Source: Polyangiaceae bacterium
GTDB taxonomy: Bacteria; Myxococcota_A; Polyangia; Polyangiales; Polyangiaceae
DNA length: 32,323 nucleotides
Assembly: GCA_020848455.1 (NCBI GenBank)
Contig: JADLAB010000337.1
Span: 1-32,323 of the forward strand
Direction: 5' to 3'
Notes under the pieces: generated by a model
Seen by the model: the letters and a program-made list of their open reading frames with translations, nothing else
What the model was told of the DNA's origin: nothing
The model's database searches: none
Position numbers and translations under genes: made by a program
Shown: piece by piece, positions 2,997 to 10,499 of the stretch
Layout: each line of letters starts with the position of its first letter
How positions within the stretch are numbered: position 1 is the stretch's first letter

Positions 2997-4100
2997 TCAA
3001 TCGGCGGGCTTGCCGCTCGCCCGCTCGAGCTGGCGCAGGCGTTCGAAGAGCTCGCGCGCCTCGTCGGAGAGCTCGGTCGGGACGTCGACGCGCACGATGA
3101 CGTAGAGCGCGCCGCGCTCCCCGCCGCCGAGCTCGGGCAGACCCTTGCCCGGGAGCGGGAAGACGGCGCCGGGCTGGGTGCCGGCCGGCACGGAGAGGGC
3201 GGTCGGGCCGTCGAGCGTCTCGACGGCGAGCTCGGTGCCGAGCGCGGCGTCGGCGACCGACAGGCGCGCGACGTGGCTGAGATCGGTGCCGCGGCGCTCG
3301 AAGCGCGGATCGGGCGCGGTCTCGAGGAAGACGAGCAGGTTGCCCGCGGGCCCGCCCGGCGTCGGGCTCGGCATGCCGTGGCCCGCGACGCGCAGGACGA
3401 CTCCGTCCGTCGCTCCGACGGGGACGCGCACGCGCACTTCCTCCTCGCGCAGCACCGCGCCCGTGCCGGAGCAGCTCGGGCACGGCCGGTCGATGAGCTT
3501 GCCGCGGCCGCCGCAGGTCTCGCAGGTCGTGATGGTCTCGAACAGGACGTTGCCGCGTCGCGAGCGCTTCGCCTGCTGGCCGGTGCCGTGGCAGCCCTCG
3601 CAGGCGCGCGGCTGCGTCCCGGCCTCGGCGCCGCTGCCCTGGCAGGCGTCGCAGCTGTGGGTGCGGCGGAAGCGCACGGTCTCCATGCCGCCGTGGAGCA
3701 CGCGCTCGAGCGGCACCGCGAGCGCAACCTCGATGTCGGCGCCGGGCATCGGCCCCGCGCGGCGTGGGCGGCGCCCGAAGCGGTCGAAGAAGGGCGCGCC
3801 GAAGCCGAAGCCCAGGCCGCCGAGCAGATCGCCGAGGTCGAGGCCACCGAAGAGGTCGTCCTGCGAGACGTCGCTCACGGCGGCGAAGCCGTGCCGGTCG
3901 TAGCGCGCGCGCTTGTCGGGATCGGACAGGACGGCGAAGGCCTCGGCGATCTGCTTGAACTTCGCCTCGGCGTCGGGCGCGCGGTTGCGGTCCGGGTGGT
4001 ACTGCTTGGCGAGCTCGCGGAACGCGGTCTTGATCTGCTTGTCGTCGGCGTCGCGCGGCACGCCGAGCACCTCGTAGTAGTCGCGACGTGGCTCGGGCAT
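2997..4100 (-). CDS. dnaJ: Type I DnaJ/Hsp40 co-chaperone
   Basis: This 367-residue protein has all type I Hsp40 parts in order. The J domain (about residues 7-70) has the Hsp70-stimulating HPD triad at 35-37. A G/F-rich linker ([18 protein letters not shown]) follows. Four zinc repeats ([32 protein letters not shown]) come next, and then the C-terminal client-binding domains. It stimulates DnaK ATPase activity and delivers unfolded clients in the cytoplasm. A Shine-Dalgarno (GAGGTG) lies about 5 nt before the ATG at 4100. No dnaK or grpE is adjacent, so this is probably an additional DnaJ (CbpA/DnaJ2-like context) rather than the heat-shock operon copy. It sits between a thioesterase-like and an ATP-grasp gene. 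Confidence 0.93.
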
Positions 4101-4122
4101 GGGAGCACCTCGGGGGGCGGGC

Positions 4123-4938
4123 TCAGCCGAACACCGCCACGCACTGGCGCGAAGCGGCGACGAGCCGGCCGCGGTCGTCCCACATCCGGCCGTCCACCGT
4201 GGCGTAGCCGTCGCCCGCGGCGATGCCGTCGGCCTCGAAGCGCCACCAGGCCTCGGGCGCGAAGCCCTCGGCGGGGGGCGGCGCCGCGACATCGACCATC
4301 CACGTCACGGTGCTCGCCGGCACGCGGGCCGGCAGGAGCGGGAGCACGGGCGCGGGCCAGGCGTCGACGAGCGCGAGCAGGGCGGCGGCGTCGACCGGGG
4401 TCGGCGCCGCGTGGCGGATCCACCCGCCGACGTTCGCGACCGAGGCGCCCGCGAACGGAAAGCGGTCCGAGGCCCAGCGGAAGTCGAAGTGCTGCGTGAA
4501 GGCGGGCGTGACGCCCTCGAGGTAGGGGAAGCGGGCGAGCGCCTCCGCGGGGGGCGCGGCCGGCGGGGCGGCGGGTGCGAGGGCGAGCGTCGAGGGGCGC
4601 GACGCTCCGAACGCGGCGACCACGACCGCGCACGTCTCGCGCGCCTGCACGATGCGCGCCTCGGCGTGCGTGAGGGCCCGGCCGGCGCGCAGCAGCCGCA
4701 CCTCGATCTCGACCGGGCCCGCGACGGCGGGCGATACGAAATCGACGACGACGGAGCGGAGCGCGCGCTCGGGCGGCACTCGCGCGGAAAGTGCGCGCAG
4801 ACCGTGCGCGGCGACGAGCCCGCCGAAGGCGCCGCGGCCCTGCGTCCAGTCGTCGGGCACGCGGCCGACGAAGCCGTCGCCGCGCGGCTCGACGGCGGAG
4901 GCGAGGGCGAAGGGAGTGCTGGACGCGGGCGCGGTCAT
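4123..4938 (-). CDS. Acyl-CoA thioesterase-like (TesB-type double hotdog) protein
   Basis: This 271-residue protein matches the thioesterase-like superfamily with two hotdog domains. The N-terminal half has [20 protein letters not shown], the long-helix region of a hotdog fold. The C-terminal half has [12 protein letters not shown], then VTWMVDV and [20 protein letters not shown], ending in the typical [13 protein letters not shown] strand. Family members hydrolyse acyl-CoA or act on related acyl substrates in the cytoplasm. The start codon overlaps the stop of the upstream zinc-ribbon gene (ATGA at 4938-4935), so translation is probably coupled. The stop is 22 bp before dnaJ. Chain-length preference cannot be predicted. 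Confidence 0.8.
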
Positions 4939-5465
4939 CGGCCGAAGGGCGTTCGGGTGGGAAAGAGCTGCGCGAGGAGCTCGGCGCGCGCCGCCTCGTG
5001 GCGGGCCTCCGCGTCGTGCACCGCCCGAGCGATGCCCTGCGCCTCGCGGACGGAGAGCGCGCGGCGCAGCGCGTGGAGCTCGCCCGCATCGAACCAGGTG
5101 CCGTGCACGCCGCACACGTCGAGGCGCATCCGGACGCCGTGGCGCCGCTCGTCGGTCGTCGTGCCCGCGAGCTCGGCCTCGCAGTGCGGGCAGGCGAGCG
5201 CGCCGGTCGGCGCGGCTGCCGCGCGGAAGGCAGGGCCGGCTGCCGGAGCCTCGGGCGGCGAGCCGCCGGGAGGTCCCGTGCGCAGGCGCCCGATGAGCGC
5301 TCGCGCGGCGTCCGAAAGCGGCATGGCGAGCAAGCGCTGGCACCAGCGGCTGTCCACCCAGGCGCCGTAGCACGTGCCGCAGGCGTGGATCTCGAGGTCC
5401 GGGATGCGCGCGGCGTAGAGCTCGACGCGACAGCGCGGACAGCGGAGCTCGCTCCCTTCAAGCAT
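4935..5465 (-). CDS. zf-TFIIB zinc-ribbon domain protein
   Basis: This 176-residue protein has two TFIIB-type zinc ribbons. The first uses CPRC (residues 9-12) and CGTC (29-32) followed by YGAWVDS. The second uses CPHC (92-95) and CGVH (118-121) followed by GTWFDAGEL, the family hallmark. A proline/alanine linker separates them and the C-terminus is a charged helix. Such proteins bind zinc, but their partners are mostly unknown. The gene is first in a four-gene operon. A TAGCGT box lies 8 nt before the ATG, which suggests a leaderless mRNA. The stop overlaps the thioesterase start. Confidence 0.8.
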   Translation of the reverse strand: MLEGSELRCPRCRVELYAARIPDLEIHACGTCYGAWVDSRWCQRLLAMPLSDAARALIGRLRTGPPGGSPPEAPAAGPAFRAAAAPTGALACPHCEAELAGTTTDERRHGVRMRLDVCGVHGTWFDAGELHALRRALSVREAQGIARAVHDAEARHEAARAELLAQLFPTRTPFGR

Positions 5466-5473
5466 CGCGCTCG

Positions 5474-5479
5474 ACGCTA
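5474..5479 (-). promoter_or_regulatory. Candidate -10 box (TAGCGT) for the zf-TFIIB/dnaJ operon
   Basis: On the minus strand TAGCGT is followed by exactly 8 nt and then the ATG at 5465. The spacing places transcription initiation at or next to the start codon. No convincing -35 hexamer is seen. Confidence 0.4.
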
Positions 5480-5510
5480 GCACGCGCGCCCGAGCGCCGC
5501 GGCCCCACCG

Positions 5511-5579
5511 CGCCCGCCCGCACGCCCGCGCCCGCCCGCGCCCGCCCGCCCGCGCCCGCGCCCGCCCGCGCGCCCGCGC
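5511..5579. repeat. GC low-complexity tract of CGCCCG-type units
   Basis: About 70 bp made almost only of CGCCCG, CCCG and CACGCC units between two divergent genes. It resembles the larger tracts at 7375-7658 and 8958-9104. It encodes nothing credible. Confidence 0.7.
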
Positions 5580-5657
5580 TCGGTGCGAGGTGACGGCGGC
5601 TGCCGGACGCGCGATAGTGCTCTCATCCGCAGCGGCGGCGTGCGGAGGTACCGGCCG

Positions 5658-6665
5658 ATGTGCTCCTCTCTCCAGCTCGCAGCCCTGTGTCTGGCCATTG
5701 CGTTGCCCGCGTGCACCGGCGGCGACACGACGAGCGCGGGCGGCGGCGGCTCGGGCGCCGTCGGCGCGGGGACTGCCGGTTGGGGTGCGGGCGGCGGAGC
5801 CGGAGGCGCGGGCAGCGGGGCAGGTGGGCACGGCGCTGGCGGCGCTGGCGGCGGCTCGACGCCGGCCCCGCTCCGGCTCGCGCTCATCGGCGACTTCGGC
5901 GACGACTCGTCCGAGGAGGCCGCGGTCGCGGCGCTGGTCGCCGGCTGGAGCCCCGACTTCGTGGTGACGCTCGGCGACAACAACTACCCGGCCGGCACGG
6001 CCGCCACGATCGACGCCTCCATCGGGCAGTATTACCAGGCCTTCATCGGCAACTACGCGGGCGCGTACGGAGCGGGCAGCGTCGCGAACCGCTTCTTTCC
6101 CTGCCCGGGCAACCACGACTGGATGGCGGCCGGGCTCGCGCCCTACCTCGACTACTTCACGCTGCCCGGCAACGAGCGGTACTACGAGGTCGACTTCGGC
6201 CTCGTGCGCCTGTTCGCACTCGACAGCGACTCGCACGAGCCCGACGGGGCGACGGCCTCGAGCGTGCAGGCCGGCTGGGCAGAGAGCCGCATCGAGGCCT
6301 CGCCCGCGTGCTGGGATCTGGTCGTGTTCCACCACGCCGCCTACTCGTCCTCGGCCGCGCACGGTTCGACGACGCGCATGCGCTGGGCGTTCGAGGCGTG
6401 GGGCGCGGACGCCGTCTTCGGCGGGCACGACCACACCTACGAGCGGCTCGCGGTCGGCGGCATCCCGTACTTCGTCAACGGCATCGGGGGCGCCGGGCTC
6501 TACGCCTTCGGGACGCCCATCGCGGAGTCGGTCGCGCGCTACAACGACCGGCACGGCGCGATGCTCGCGACCGCGACGGTGAGCGACCTCACCTTCGAGC
6601 TCTACAGCGACGACGGCGTGCTCCAGGACAGCCACGTCGTGCAGAAGAACTGCCTCTCCCCATGA
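5658..6665 (+). CDS. Lipoprotein metallophosphatase (calcineurin-like/purple acid phosphatase-like)
   Basis: This 335-residue protein starts with a lipoprotein signal whose lipobox LPAC has Cys19. A Gly/Ala-rich linker (about 22-67) of the kind common in myxobacterial envelope proteins follows. The calcineurin-like fold shows the metal ligands in order: GDFGD (78-82), GDNNY (106-110), GNHDW (151-155), FHH (224-226) and GGHDHTYE (255-262). It should be a membrane-anchored, exported phosphomonoesterase or phosphodiesterase using two metals. The usual GDxH of the first motif is GDFG here, as in purple-acid-phosphatase-like enzymes. The ATG at 5658 is preferred because GGAGG lies 9 nt upstream and the signal peptide starts there. 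The stop overlaps the next ATG. Confidence 0.88.
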   Translation: MCSSLQLAALCLAIALPACTGGDTTSAGGGGSGAVGAGTAGWGAGGGAGGAGSGAGGHGAGGAGGGSTPAPLRLALIGDFGDDSSEEAAVAALVAGWSPDFVVTLGDNNYPAGTAATIDASIGQYYQAFIGNYAGAYGAGSVANRFFPCPGNHDWMAAGLAPYLDYFTLPGNERYYEVDFGLVRLFALDSDSHEPDGATASSVQAGWAESRIEASPACWDLVVFHHAAYSSSAAHGSTTRMRWAFEAWGADAVFGGHDHTYERLAVGGIPYFVNGIGGAGLYAFGTPIAESVARYNDRHGAMLATATVSDLTFELYSDDGVLQDSHVVQKNCLSP

Positions 6666-7315
6666 CCGAAGCCTCTCTCCAGGCCCTGCGCGGGCTGCGC
6701 GATCCCTCGACCCTGCGCTGGTACGTGATCCCGCTGCTCGCGTTCGTCTTCTACGTCTACGTGCGCGAGATCCAGGCGGCGCGGCGTAGCAAGAACTGGG
6801 ACGCCGTCGTCGCGGGGCTCGTGCTCTTCGGCGTGGACTTCGTGAACGAGACCGCCAACGGCTGGATCCTGAACCTGACCGGCCGCTCGGCCCTCTGGAC
6901 CACGCCGGGCGAGACGGCCCTGCGCACCATGGTGGGCTGGAACATCGAGATCATGTTCATGTTCGCCATCGGCGGCATCGTGTACTTCCACACGCTGTCC
7001 GACGACCCGAAGGCGCGCATCCTCGGCCTGCCCGAGCGCTGGTTCTGGGCCGTCGCCTACGCGGCCTTCTCGGTGCTCGTCGAGTGCCTGCTCAACGCGG
7101 GCGGCCTGCTCGTCTGGGAGTACCCGTTCTGGAACCGCTCGTTCGCGGGCGTGTGGCTCATCTTCCTCTTCTGGTACTTCCACTTCTACGTCGCCATCAT
7201 CCTCGTGCTCCGTCTCTCGACCCTGAAGAGGCGCCTGGCCGCCGTCGGCGGCATCTACGGCCTCGCCGTGGCGGGCAACGTGGTCGGCCTCGGCGTGCTT
7301 GGGTTTCAGTACTGA
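6662..7315 (+). CDS. Predicted six-TM membrane protein of unknown function
   Basis: This 217-residue protein has about six hydrophobic segments: near residues 22-38 (VIPLLAFVFYVYV), 47-62, 95-115 (IEIMFMFAIGGIVYF), 130-150 (FWAVAYAAFSVLVECLL), 160-185 (GVWLIFLFWYFHFYVAIIL) and 195-215. I do not recognise a family. Polar or charged residues inside or near membrane segments (FGVDFVNE, LVECLLN) hint at a functional pocket. It is translationally coupled to the phosphatase lipoprotein by an ATGA overlap at 6662-6665, so the two may act together in the envelope. It is followed by a 749-bp gene-free repeat region. Confidence 0.75.
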   Translation: MTEASLQALRGLRDPSTLRWYVIPLLAFVFYVYVREIQAARRSKNWDAVVAGLVLFGVDFVNETANGWILNLTGRSALWTTPGETALRTMVGWNIEIMFMFAIGGIVYFHTLSDDPKARILGLPERWFWAVAYAAFSVLVECLLNAGGLLVWEYPFWNRSFAGVWLIFLFWYFHFYVAIILVLRLSTLKRRLAAVGGIYGLAVAGNVVGLGVLGFQY

Positions 7316-7374
7316 GGAAATTGCGGTCGAAGGTCGCCGGTCGAAGGTCTGCGCGCCCCAGAGGCCCGCACCGA

Positions 7375-7658
7375 GCCCGCTCGCGCGCCCGCTCGCGCAC
7401 CCGCTCGCGCGCCCGCTCGCGCACCCGCTCGCCCACCCGCGCGCGCACCCGCACGCGCCCGCGCCCGCACGCGCGCCCGCGCCCGCGCCCGCGCCCGCTC
7501 GCGCCCGCACGCGCGCCCGCTCGCGCACCCGCACGCGCACCCGCACGCGCGCCCGCACCCGCGCCCGCGCGCGCGCCCGCTCGCGCACCCGCACGCGCGC
7601 CCGCACCCGCACCCGCGCCCGCGCGCGCGCCCGCGCGCGCGCCCGCGCCCGCACCCGA
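7375..7658. repeat. Hexanucleotide GC repeat tract (ACCCGC/GCGCCC family), C-rich on plus strand
   Basis: About 285 bp of degenerate 6-bp units such as GCGCCC, GCTCGC, GCACCC and GCACGC. Because the unit length is divisible by three, every frame stays open and would encode Arg/Pro/Ala strings; these are not genes. It lies upstream of the HUH transposase gene. A tract of the same unit family on the opposite strand lies downstream at 8958-9104. Just before it, CGGTCGAAGGTC occurs twice (7324-7335 and 7338-7349). Confidence 0.85.
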
Positions 7659-7744
7659 GGCCTGCGGACGTAACCACCCCCGGCTAGCCCGAAACGGACC
7701 GGGGGTTGGTTACGCGCCGAGGGGCCGTCGGGGCGGCCGCGCCG
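7654..7744. repeat. Direct repeat copy 1 (~91 bp) with REP-like palindrome
   Basis: This repeats at 7801-7892 with about 92% identity by eye. The core is an imperfect hairpin: left arm GTAACCACCCCCGG (7670-7683), a 15-nt loop, and right arm CCGGGGGTTGGTTAC (7699-7713), with one bulged base. A conserved tail running to GGCGGCCGCGCCG follows. Size and position next to a RAYT-like gene fit a REP element embedded in a longer unit. Confidence 0.8.
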
Positions 7745-7800
7745 GTGGTGCCGACGAGCGGACGCACACTTACGAGCGCGCGGCGAGCCGCGGGCGCGCG

Positions 7801-7892
7801 CCCGAGGCGCACGGACGTAACCAACCCCGGCTAGACCGAAACGGACCGGGGGGTTGGTTACGCGCCGAGGGGTCGTCGGGGCGGCCGCGCCG
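7801..7892. repeat. Direct repeat copy 2 (~92 bp) with REP-like palindrome
   Basis: This is the second copy, starting 147 bp after copy 1 starts. Its palindrome is stronger: GTAACCAACCCC (7817-7828) pairs perfectly with GGGGTTGGTTAC (7850-7861), extended by C7816-G7862. The loop contains CTAGACCGAAACGGA. Differences from copy 1 include a C/A change in the left arm and one extra G in the right arm. The two copies are in the same orientation. Confidence 0.8.
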
Positions 7893-8018
7893 CCTGGTGT
7901 GTGGGTCGGCTGCACGACGTCGCCTTGGCGGCAACCGCGGGGAGCCAGCCTGGCGGAGTCGTCTCGAGCCGCGCCCGGCGGGGCGGTCACTTTCCTCGCA
8001 ACCCGCGTGGCCGCGGTG

Positions 8019-8045
8019 TCGACCTGCACCGAGCACCGAGGTCGA
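8019..8045 (+). promoter_or_regulatory. Small hairpin in the leader of the HUH transposase gene
   Basis: TCGACCT (8019-8025) and AGGTCGA (8039-8045) form a perfect 7-bp stem with a 13-nt loop, 7 nt before the AAGGAG ribosome binding site (8053-8058). It could influence translation or be a binding site. The rest of 7893-8064 shows nothing else I can name. Confidence 0.35.
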
Positions 8046-8064
8046 GTCCACGAAGGAGCGTGAC

Positions 8065-8943
8065 ATGGCACTGGGGCACCACGTCGTCCTGAAGCTCTAC
8101 GACGAGCGGGTGATCGCGCCGACACCCGCGGCGCAACGGGTCCTCGGGCGCACGGCCCTGCGCGTCGGCGAGGGCTTCCCCCTGGTCGCGTTGCGGGCCG
8201 CCGACACGCACATCCATCTGCTCGTCGCCTGCGACGAGGCGACCGCGCGCGAGCTCGCGCGGCGCGTCGCGGGGAGCCTGCGGCGTGCGCTCGCGCTGCC
8301 CGTGCGCTTCGACCGGGCGCGCGCGACGCCCGTCGTCGATCAGCGCCACCTCCTGAACAGCTTCCGCTACGTGCTGCGGCAGCACGCGCGCCACGGCATC
8401 GCCTCGGACCCGCTGTTCGACGCCAGCAACCTGCCCGATCTGCTCGGCATGCGCCTGCTCGGCGCGTTCACGCAGGCACACGTGGGCGCCCTGCTGCCGA
8501 GGCTCGCGCGGCCCGAGCTCCGCGCGCTCCTCGGCGTGCCGGAGCTCGACGAGCCACGCCCGGTGTCGCTCGACGACCTCGCCGACGCGGCGGCTGGTGC
8601 GGCCGGCCTCGCGGACCTTTGCGACCGGTCGCGCGCCGCGGTGGCCGCGCGTCGTGCTGCCGCCCAGGCCGTGGCCCACTCGACCGCGACTGGCGCAACC
8701 GCGGCCTGCGCGACCGCGACTGGCGCGACCGCGAGCACCTCGACCGCGACCCACCCGAGCGCGCGCGAGCTCGCGTCGGCCCTCGGCGTCGGCCAGCACG
8801 CCGTGCGCAAGCTCCTGCTCCAGCCGGTCGAGCCCGCCCTCCTGCGCGCGGTGCGCCTGCAGCTCCGCGCGCGAGCAGCGCTGCGGACGCGCGCCCTCGC
8901 GGGGGCCGCCCTCGCGGGCGACCTCGCGGGCGCCGCGTCTTGA
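8065..8943 (+). CDS. Y1/HUH transposase-like protein (RAYT-type, IS200-like fold)
   Basis: This 292-residue protein has the signature of Y1 HUH single-strand transposases. The His-hydrophobic-His motif is HIH at residues 49-51 in DTHIHLLVACDE. The putative nucleophilic Tyr102 lies in the helix SFRYVLRQHARHG, where IS200/RAYT enzymes place it. The family nicks and joins single-stranded DNA at hairpins through a 5'-phosphotyrosine. After a low-complexity Ala/Thr linker (about 205-230), the C-terminus SARELASALGVGQHAVRKLL looks like a helix-turn-helix. AAGGAG lies 6 nt before the ATG. The gene is solitary, has no terminal inverted repeats, and follows two palindromic repeats. This fits a REP-associated, domesticated transposase better than a mobile IS. 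Catalytic residues look intact. Confidence 0.75.
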   Translation: MALGHHVVLKLYDERVIAPTPAAQRVLGRTALRVGEGFPLVALRAADTHIHLLVACDEATARELARRVAGSLRRALALPVRFDRARATPVVDQRHLLNSFRYVLRQHARHGIASDPLFDASNLPDLLGMRLLGAFTQAHVGALLPRLARPELRALLGVPELDEPRPVSLDDLADAAAGAAGLADLCDRSRAAVAARRAAAQAVAHSTATGATAACATATGATASTSTATHPSARELASALGVGQHAVRKLLLQPVEPALLRAVRLQLRARAALRTRALAGAALAGDLAGAAS

Positions 8944-8957
8944 GACGCGACCCCGAC

Positions 8958-9104
8958 GCGAGTGCGGGTGCGAGTGCGAGTGCGAGTGCGGGTGCGGGTG
9001 CGGGTGCGAGTGCGGGCGCGGGGGCGGGTGCGAGTGCGAGTGCGGGCGCGGGCGCGGGAGCGGGTGCGGGGGCGGGTGCGGGTGCGGGGGCGGGTGCGGG
9101 TGCG
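8958..9104. repeat. Hexanucleotide GC repeat tract (GCGGGT/GCGAGT), G-rich on plus strand
   Basis: About 147 bp of 6-bp units GCGGGT, GCGAGT, GCGGGG and GCGGGC fill the gap between the convergent transposase and ligase genes. The tract abuts the ligase stop codon (complement of 9105-9107). GCGGGT is the reverse complement of the ACCCGC units upstream, so the tracts form an inverted pair around the transposase. Runs of three or more G separated by 2-3 nt (about 9050-9103) fit a G-quadruplex pattern. Confidence 0.85.
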
Positions 9105-10499
9105 TCAGGGGGCTTCGCTCTGCCAGGCGACGAGCTTGCCGGCTCCGTTGCCGAGCTCCGGATCGAGGATGATCTCGATGCGGGCGTCGCGGCCGAAGAG
9201 CTCGCGCAGGGCGTGATCGACGACCTCGACGGAGATCGGCACGTGCGGCAAGGGGCGCAGGCGGAGCTCGAGCGCGAGGTCGGCGCGCTGCACGAGGGCC
9301 TGCTGCACGAAGGGCACGAGCGGGCGGATGGTGCGCGCCACGTCGACCGAGGTGACGGTGCTGCCGTCGAGGGCGCGGAAGCTCACGCTCGCGCGGCCCT
9401 CGAGGTCGAGGATGACGCGGGCCCGGCGCCCGTCGGGCAGGAGCGTCGTGCCGAGCCGGCCGTGGTCACCGGTGCGGTAGCGCACGAGGGGGAGGTACGG
9501 ATTGCGGCCGCCCGTCACGGTGAGCTCCCCGCGCGCGCCCTCGGGCACGCGCTCGCCGTCCGCGTCGAGCGCCTCGACGTACACGTCGGGGCAGAGCACG
9601 ACGTGCCCCTCGACGTCCGGCAGGGTGGCCGCGACCGGTCCGGTCTCGGTCGCGGAGTAGAGATCGACGACCGCGGCGCCGAGCCCCGCCGACACGGCGC
9701 GCGCCGTGGCGGGGGTGAGCGTGACCGCGCTCGACACGACGAGCTTCGGCCGGAGCGGCAGCTCGAGGCGCAGCACCTCGCCGAGCGACACCGGCTCGGA
9801 GGCGAGCAGGGTCGGCGCCCAGGCGGCGAGGAAGCGCGCGCGTGACGCGGCGCCGCCCGCCCAGTCGTGGGCGGCGAGGTTCACCTTCGCGAGGAGCGCG
9901 CCGGCCCATCCCGAGAGCGAGGTCGCGAACACGTAGGTGCGCTGCTGCACGCCCGCGTTGAGCGCGAAGGGCACCCCCGCCTCGGGCGCGAGCGCCACGC
10001 CGTGGAGGGCCGCGAGCCGCTCGAGGTGGGCGAGGTTCTGGACCATGGCACCCGGGTGGCTCGGCACGACGACCGAGTGGCCGGTGGTGCCCGAGGTCGA
10101 GTACACGATCGCCCGATCGAGCTCCGCGTCGCGCGGCACGAGCTCCTCGAGCCGCCGCGCGATGTCCTCGCGCGACGAGGTCGGCAGGTCCGCGAAGTCG
10201 CGCGCGCAGTCGAATCCGTAGGGCAGGGCGTCGAGGAGCGGCAGCGTGCCGCGGAGGGCGTCCACGCGCGCCGCCATGGCGGCCGAGGGCTCGCGCGCGG
10301 CCTCGAGCGGCTCGTCGGCGAGGGCGCGCCGGAACCGCGCCAGCGCCTCGAGCTCGCGTTCGCCCACGCGGTCGCCCATCGTGCGGTTCCACCGCGGTGC
10401 GTCGGGGTGCTCGAGCCAGCTGGTCAGGCCCTGCCACGCGCGCGCGCCGAGCAGGGGAGCCCTCGTGCGCCAGTCGTCGGGGATGGCGGTCGGCTGCAT
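9105..10499 (-). CDS. PaaK-like adenylate-forming (AMP-dependent) ligase
   Basis: This 464-residue protein is of the ANL superfamily and closest in style to phenylacetate-CoA ligase (PaaK)/LuxE acyl-activating enzymes. The nucleotide-binding P-loop is YSTSGTTGHS (residues 133-142). The A5-like motif YSATETGP and the A7-like motif YRTGDHG follow. A C-terminal GAGKLVAW carries the likely catalytic lysine of the last motif. It should activate a carboxylic acid as acyl-AMP and pass it to CoA or another acceptor; neither the acid nor the acceptor is known. The start follows the preceding gene's stop after only 2 nt. It is the last gene of the MoxR/VWA operon, which is an unusual partnership and suggests that it is the client or effector. 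Confidence 0.82.
   Translation of the reverse strand: MQPTAIPDDWRTRAPLLGARAWQGLTSWLEHPDAPRWNRTMGDRVGERELEALARFRRALADEPLEAAREPSAAMAARVDALRGTLPLLDALPYGFDCARDFADLPTSSREDIARRLEELVPRDAELDRAIVYSTSGTTGHSVVVPSHPGAMVQNLAHLERLAALHGVALAPEAGVPFALNAGVQQRTYVFATSLSGWAGALLAKVNLAAHDWAGGAASRARFLAAWAPTLLASEPVSLGEVLRLELPLRPKLVVSSAVTLTPATARAVSAGLGAAVVDLYSATETGPVAATLPDVEGHVVLCPDVYVEALDADGERVPEGARGELTVTGGRNPYLPLVRYRTGDHGRLGTTLLPDGRRARVILDLEGRASVSFRALDGSTVTSVDVARTIRPLVPFVQQALVQRADLALELRLRPLPHVPISVEVVDHALRELFGRDARIEIILDPELGNGAGKLVAWQSEAP

Follow-up and report, generated by a model that had tools for sequence, protein, structure and literature searches.

The hairpin repeats and the neighbouring gene

The window (the whole analysed stretch of 32,323 nucleotides from an uncultured Polyangiaceae bacterium) contains a gene at 8065-8943 that is preceded by two hairpin-bearing direct repeats. 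The first-pass annotation had regarded the combination as a possible myxobacterial REP/RAYT system. The following features of the gene are relevant:

8065-8943, + strand: gene for a predicted RAYT-like Y1 HUH/Tyr protein with a C-terminal helix-turn-helix (HTH), 292 aa, ATG start
8053-8058, + strand: ribosome-binding site AAGGAG, read from the sequence
8209-8217, + strand: HUH motif codons H49-I50-H51, within D-T-H-I-H, from the homologue alignment
8368-8370, + strand: putative catalytic Tyr102 (RYVLRQ, Q106 at +4), from the homologue alignment
8761-8820, + strand: predicted C-terminal HTH (weak HTH_50 match, HTH_23 in homologues, helices in the structural model)

The encoded protein is a divergent Y1 protein

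It had been noted from the sequence that H49-I-H51 and Tyr102 of the Y1 transposases are kept in the gene. These residues were indeed found to be nearly invariant in an alignment of 70 homologues: H49 and Tyr102 were present in all 70 sequences, and H51 in 69 of them. H95, H110 and D47 were also nearly invariant. Four residues downstream of the Tyr, Q was present in 51/70 and N in 19/70 homologues. Pro at Tyr+5 was not conserved in these 70 sequences, so that the Y---NP signature was absent, and a conserved Trp upstream of the Tyr was not found either (W in at most 12/70 in any column of residues 76-102).

The 292-aa protein did not match Pfam Y1_Tnp or NCBIfam REP_Tyr at the curated cut-off; this reflects the reach of these models and is not a biological criterion. 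Weak matches were present among the 70 homologues, 10 to Y1_Tnp and 13 to REP_Tyr_transpos. At the C-terminus, the protein itself had a weak match to HTH_50, HTH_23 was detected in 31/70 homologues, and the AlphaFold model (pLDDT 85.6) has helices at this position. The fold nearest to the model was that of the E. coli RAYT in complex with a REP hairpin (4er8; Z 11.2, 133 residues), and the next chain was 2.3 lower (Z 8.9). With Foldseek alone, 4er8 (E 0.0037) was placed just behind a Thg1-like chain, and when the homologue profile was compared with the PDB, 4er8 was top-ranked (E 0.13). The hhalign alignment to two NP-type Y1 proteins that the genome also encodes extended over the full length, including the HTH (probability 94, E 1.2e-7). 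Together, the fold and profile comparisons place the 292-aa protein in the TnpA-Y1 (HUH, single Tyr) superfamily, as a divergent member.

Two other candidates were rejected. The similarity to Thg1 (Z 8.9) was taken as a fold resemblance only, because Thg1 is not known to be an HUH/Tyr enzyme. Esi, an epothilone regulator that was raised by a literature match, is unrelated to the 292-aa protein.

The hairpins are part of a longer repeating unit

Upstream of the gene the following elements were mapped:

7670-7713, + strand: hairpin copy 1, GTAACC...GGTTAC, 44 nt (R1 model 49 bits, fold z -3.3)
7817-7861, + strand: hairpin copy 2, 45 nt (R1 model 60 bits, fold z -3.2)
7670-7816, + strand: 147-nt repeating unit, hairpin plus spacer, with a period shared with most dispersed arrays
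7750-7771, + strand: second conserved module in the spacer, CGACGAGCG..CGCACACTT, from the aligned units of 11 arrays

The direct repeats, 7654-7744 and 7801-7892, were identical in 85/92 columns (92.4%), in agreement with the about 92% given before. Both hairpins are in direct orientation upstream of the gene, and they are the only GTAACC...GGTTAC elements in the window. As single-stranded DNA, copy 1 had a folding energy of -14.0 and copy 2 of -12.9 kcal/mol; the z values listed above are relative to dinucleotide shuffles, nearly all of which folded less well than the two copies. The annotated hairpin is present in each repeat, and the description of its interior had to be refined: the 15-nt loop goes with a 14-bp arm and itself holds a small CCG/CGG hairpin. 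A larger conserved unit was also correctly recognized, but its length of ~91 bp was not, since the dispersed arrays give about 147 nt. The unit, a 45-nt hairpin plus a spacer, repeats every 147-148 nt or so, and up to 169 nt in some dispersed arrays. The spacer module ends with CACTTGG, or with CACACTTA in the window copies. The window hairpins have diverged from the dispersed copies, with 49 and 60 bits versus about 70 bits.

An Rfam scan of the repeat region gave no match. The GT[AG]G tetranucleotide was absent from the hairpin foot in the copies for which the feet were listed. GTAG is instead found inside the loop of the dispersed copies, and CTAG at this place in the window copies, a resemblance to the E. 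coli REP foot that may be a coincidence. There was no constant hairpin foot, of the CnGA type or otherwise, and the GGGGWSAS motif was absent from the hairpins. With both copies upstream and direct, a terminal inverted-repeat layout was also not present.

The gene is bracketed by C/G-rich hexamer-like tracts (window 7370-7655 and 8955-9105), which are about 78% mutually complementary and of low complexity. Similar C/G-rich tracts adjoin other repeat arrays in the genome.

The hairpin family is dispersed in the genome

A covariance model revealed 48 strong copies of the GTAACC hairpin at 24 sites in the source genome, nearly all of them intergenic. The presence of tens of intergenic copies had been proposed as a supporting observation at the outset, and it was made. 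Most arrays are tandem and run head-to-tail, and thus inverted pairs (REPIN/BIME) are not the pattern. When three families were pooled, 66 of 77 repeat copies were outside predicted genes, versus 24% of random positions; the underlying coding scan was crude, preferring an antisense ORF over the gene at 8065-8943, and the value is a rough guide. Frequent locations of the arrays are directly behind a stop codon and in the interval between two convergent genes.

When 107 further genomes from the family were scanned, the model detected 8 copies in the one congener with a match, and one weaker site each in two others. A chance or low-complexity origin of the repeats was ruled out by reversed-pattern, control-window and shuffle controls. 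Several short matches in the first DNA search were probably spurious.

Paralogues have their own hairpin families

The first search revealed three further paralogues in the genome, which are 60, 46 and 44% identical to the 292-aa protein. Within the genome the paralogues are 42-70% identical, and D-T-H-x-H, Tyr102 and Gln106 are invariant among them. Separate dispersed families were counted for the paralogues on contigs C406 and C541; the C86 paralogue has two near-identical hairpins upstream. The C406-type hairpin was present in 21 perfect-stem copies, which form two subfamilies (reversed-pattern control 0), and the C541-type hairpin in 15 copies (control 1), not counting one match at C185 with an interior unlike the family.

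The orthologue pairs C541/L049 (89.6% identical) and C406/L047 (74.8% identical), from two species, each share one hairpin type. In a genome of another family of the phylum (G004), the hairpin beside the homologue is of a quite different type and was present in 16 copies (control 0). No single motif was shared by all of the hairpin families: ACTT at the stem-loop junction was present in only 11/38 families under a strict criterion.

Two NP-type Y1 proteins with a C-terminal HTH, L181 (G000:C35) and L180 (G000:C535), were also seen to have their own upstream hairpins, GGTCATCCCCGAAATTCTCCC... and CAGTTCCC..GGGAACTG, respectively. From these sequences, further gene-hairpin pairs seem to be present in the source genome.

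Homologues and their linkage to repeated hairpins

Of 379 Myxococcota genomes, 30 contain homologues. A limited test with two peptide patterns against 84,980 named genomes gave matches only in Myxococcota/deltaproteobacterial MAGs. A repeated hairpin, defined as a 34-66 nt hairpin with at least two occurrences within 1 kb, was present at a distance of up to 1 kb from 37/79 homologues, but only in 2/138 control windows, which were drawn from genomes that themselves carry homologues. The Fisher p value of 2.6e-17 is optimistic because several homologues share one genome; the contrast itself is not. The expectation that hairpins are conserved beside orthologues, also formulated in advance, was thus borne out. 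The other 42 of the 79 homologues had no repeated hairpin by the 1-kb criterion, and some of these are at contig ends.

Further observations concern single homologues. The genes are often only a few hundred bases away from a contig end (e.g., L086, L087, L095 and L096), as expected if repeats break assemblies. L050 (CAITIQ010000469.1, about 3559-7397) is flanked by seven hairpins, which have one orientation upstream and the other downstream, unlike the direct arrays elsewhere. In another genus, a homologue is located beside GGAACCAACCCCGGGTAGA... hairpins (L184, G407:C69:4066-4110), which have a similar interior and in which one T-A stem pair is replaced by G-C, a compensatory change.

Comparison with a sister species

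The congener with 8 copies, G387 (MAG Myxococcales NC_groundwater_1660, recognized by identical proteins), is a draft that is 86% complete. Its syntenic locus has flanks that are 92-96% identical, and it lacks one segment:

7320-8524, + strand: segment absent from the syntenic locus G387:C47, comprising both hairpins and the catalytic HUH/Tyr half

The gene is thus truncated in G387, which has the 8 GTAACC copies, versus 48 in the source genome with the intact gene. The quality of the copies differed as well: perfect 8-bp stems were present in 37 of the 42 scored copies of the source genome, but only in 2/8 of G387, where the stems of the other six are broken (p 7e-4). Four G387 sites are common to the source genome, and they contain single copies versus two or three in tandem. 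At two G387 sites the array is absent, and at a third there is one unit versus three in the source genome. The L048-type gene gave the reciprocal result. It is intact in G387, and only residues 215-293 are left in the source genome; the respective hairpin has 33 perfect copies in G387 versus 12 in the source genome. For the reciprocal copy-number table the Fisher p value was 1.4e-9 by copies, which are not independent within one array, and 0.0012 by sites (24, 6 versus 7, 14), in both cases for one species pair of draft MAGs. Both truncated genes, L163 (G000:C13:3125-3361) and L209 (G387:C47), have kept the C-terminal HTH half and not the catalytic half.

Each of the two hairpin families thus has more copies in the genome with an intact cognate gene, and this suggests that the repeats are maintained by the enzyme. 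The comparison is suggestive and not a proof, because it comprises one species pair and draft genomes. No exact empty site, either with a clean junction or with a target duplication, could be read at the sister-species sites, because the intergenic flanks have diverged. The pattern agrees with a report on E. coli, in which REPINs were more numerous in genomes that have the RAYT than in genomes that lack it (PMC8049555).

These results also bear on a different explanation, i.e., that the protein is a domesticated DNA-binding regulator and the hairpins are terminators or operators, which were spread by recombination or slippage without the protein. The C-terminal HTH, the frequent location of arrays behind stop codons or in convergent intergenic regions, and the hairpins in front of the gene itself would all be in line with such a role. 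However, the HUH motif and the Tyr are nearly invariant in the 70 homologues, which argues against a mere binder, as it would not need them. In addition, the repeat number tracks the intact catalytic half: the HTH half survives in the truncated genes, and the repeats are few. A regulator is thus rather improbable.

Relationship to known Y1 systems

TnpA-Y1 proteins have been split into three classes (PMC6006769), and, as judged from its sequences, the myxobacterial family fits none of them fully. With REP/RAYT systems (E. coli 4er8; PMC2817692, PMC8266576) it shares the Y1 HUH fold and the location of the gene beside the hairpins that belong to it. In both, copies are scattered between genes, several genes are present with a separate repeat family for each, and an intact gene goes with a higher number of repeats (for E. 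coli, see PMC8049555). In contrast to REP/RAYT, there is neither a GT[AG]G foot nor a Trp motif, the signature is Y---[QN] without P, the hairpin is longer (45-50 nt) and embedded in a ~147-nt unit, the arrays are direct and tandem instead of inverted pairs, and the protein has a C-terminal HTH. Fold, layout, cognate hairpins and single-copy divergent paralogues notwithstanding, a canonical, E. coli-type REP/RAYT system (class 2 TnpA-REP) is very unlikely by the criteria of PMC6006769, i.e., foot, Y---NP and Trp. From the first-pass label, RAYT-like could be retained, based on fold and profile, whereas REP/RAYT in the strict sense could not, as foot and Y---NP are lacking. Its wording of a distinct variety with a C-terminal HTH was the right level of description.

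For the HTH-bearing members, the closest association described so far is that of the TIRYTs (PMC3733652). Subclass 2.1/TIRYT proteins (PMC6006769, PMC3733652) are similar in size (~240-290 aa) and in having a C-terminal HTH/Bac_DnaA_C-like domain, and the full-length profile match to the two NP-type HTH Y1 proteins of the source genome is a further likeness. Self-complementarity, clustering and dispersal, as in the myxobacterial repeats, are also described for some TIR families (PMC6006769, PMC3733652). However, subclass 2.1 has Y---NP and was reported to be without REPs (PMC6006769), and the repeats of TIRYTs are terminal and inverted and frequently carry GGGGWSAS (PMC3733652), unlike the myxobacterial copies. 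Class 3, listed for Planctomycetes, Acidobacteria and Proteobacteria (PMC6006769), is similar in that Q and not NP follows the Tyr and that many-copy, atypical hairpins flank the genes. But class 3 has the Q at +5, a CnGA foot and a Trp motif, whereas in the myxobacterial family the Q is at +4 and the other two are absent.

IS200/IS605 TnpA proteins (IS608, ISDra2) have a similar fold (Z 7.8-8.8) and Y---Q, but the myxobacterial genes are divergent single genes without IS structure and with an extra C-terminal domain. Least likely of all is a degenerate IS200/IS605-like insertion sequence with non-autonomous remnants: the Y---Q signature as in class 1 and the Y1 fold would fit, but no tnpB was seen near the gene among the window ORFs, the draft has no near-identical full-length copies (the closest own paralogue is about 60% identical), and synteny around the gene is kept in the sister species. 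In the openly accessible literature, no description of such a system in myxobacteria was found.

Proposed mode of action and significance

The gene probably encodes a host-resident Y1 HUH single-stranded DNA endonuclease of the RAYT/TnpA-Y1 kind, with the 45-nt GTAACC...GGTTAC hairpin as its substrate. Several points count against this reading: the copy number of tens, not hundreds, the divergence of the window hairpins from the dispersed copies, the absence of a readable empty site, the 42 homologues with no repeated hairpin, and the restriction of the reciprocal comparison to one species pair. TnpA-IS200 and TnpA-REP recognize a bulged, folded single strand, nick it with a Tyr linkage and transfer the strand (PMC8266576), which makes the same route likely here; the 292-aa protein has the residues and the fold that this route requires. 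By analogy, we infer that the protein acts on these repeats, with nicking at a cleavage site and a transfer step. The unit would be exposed as a single strand, probably at replication forks, and the strand would fold. The protein would then bind the irregular hairpin and nick beside it via Tyr102, and the unit would be transferred or copied into intergenic sites. Tandem arrays could grow by the same reaction or by replication slippage. The C-terminal HTH may aid duplex binding or dimerisation, and each paralogue would serve one hairpin family.

A more specific proposal is tentative, and we consider it possible rather than probable: the proteins could form a clade of Y1 HUH enzymes, mostly from Myxococcota, that has not been described before, in which a composite unit of ~60-150 nt is amplified head to tail and seeded intergenically, unlike REPIN dispersal, in which recognition is by the irregular hairpin interior and not by a 5' guide tetranucleotide, and in which the dependence is strictly between one gene and one hairpin.

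The persistence of RAYTs, and the question of whether the repeats depend on them, have been discussed chiefly on the basis of E. coli and Pseudomonas. The myxobacterial family, which escapes the standard models of Pfam and NCBIfam, adds a separate lineage in which one genome has several gene-hairpin pairs. It extends the hairpin-associated Y1 enzymes to proteins with a C-terminal HTH, for which REPs had been reported to be absent, and the reciprocal gene loss between the sister species makes cognate dependence directly testable.
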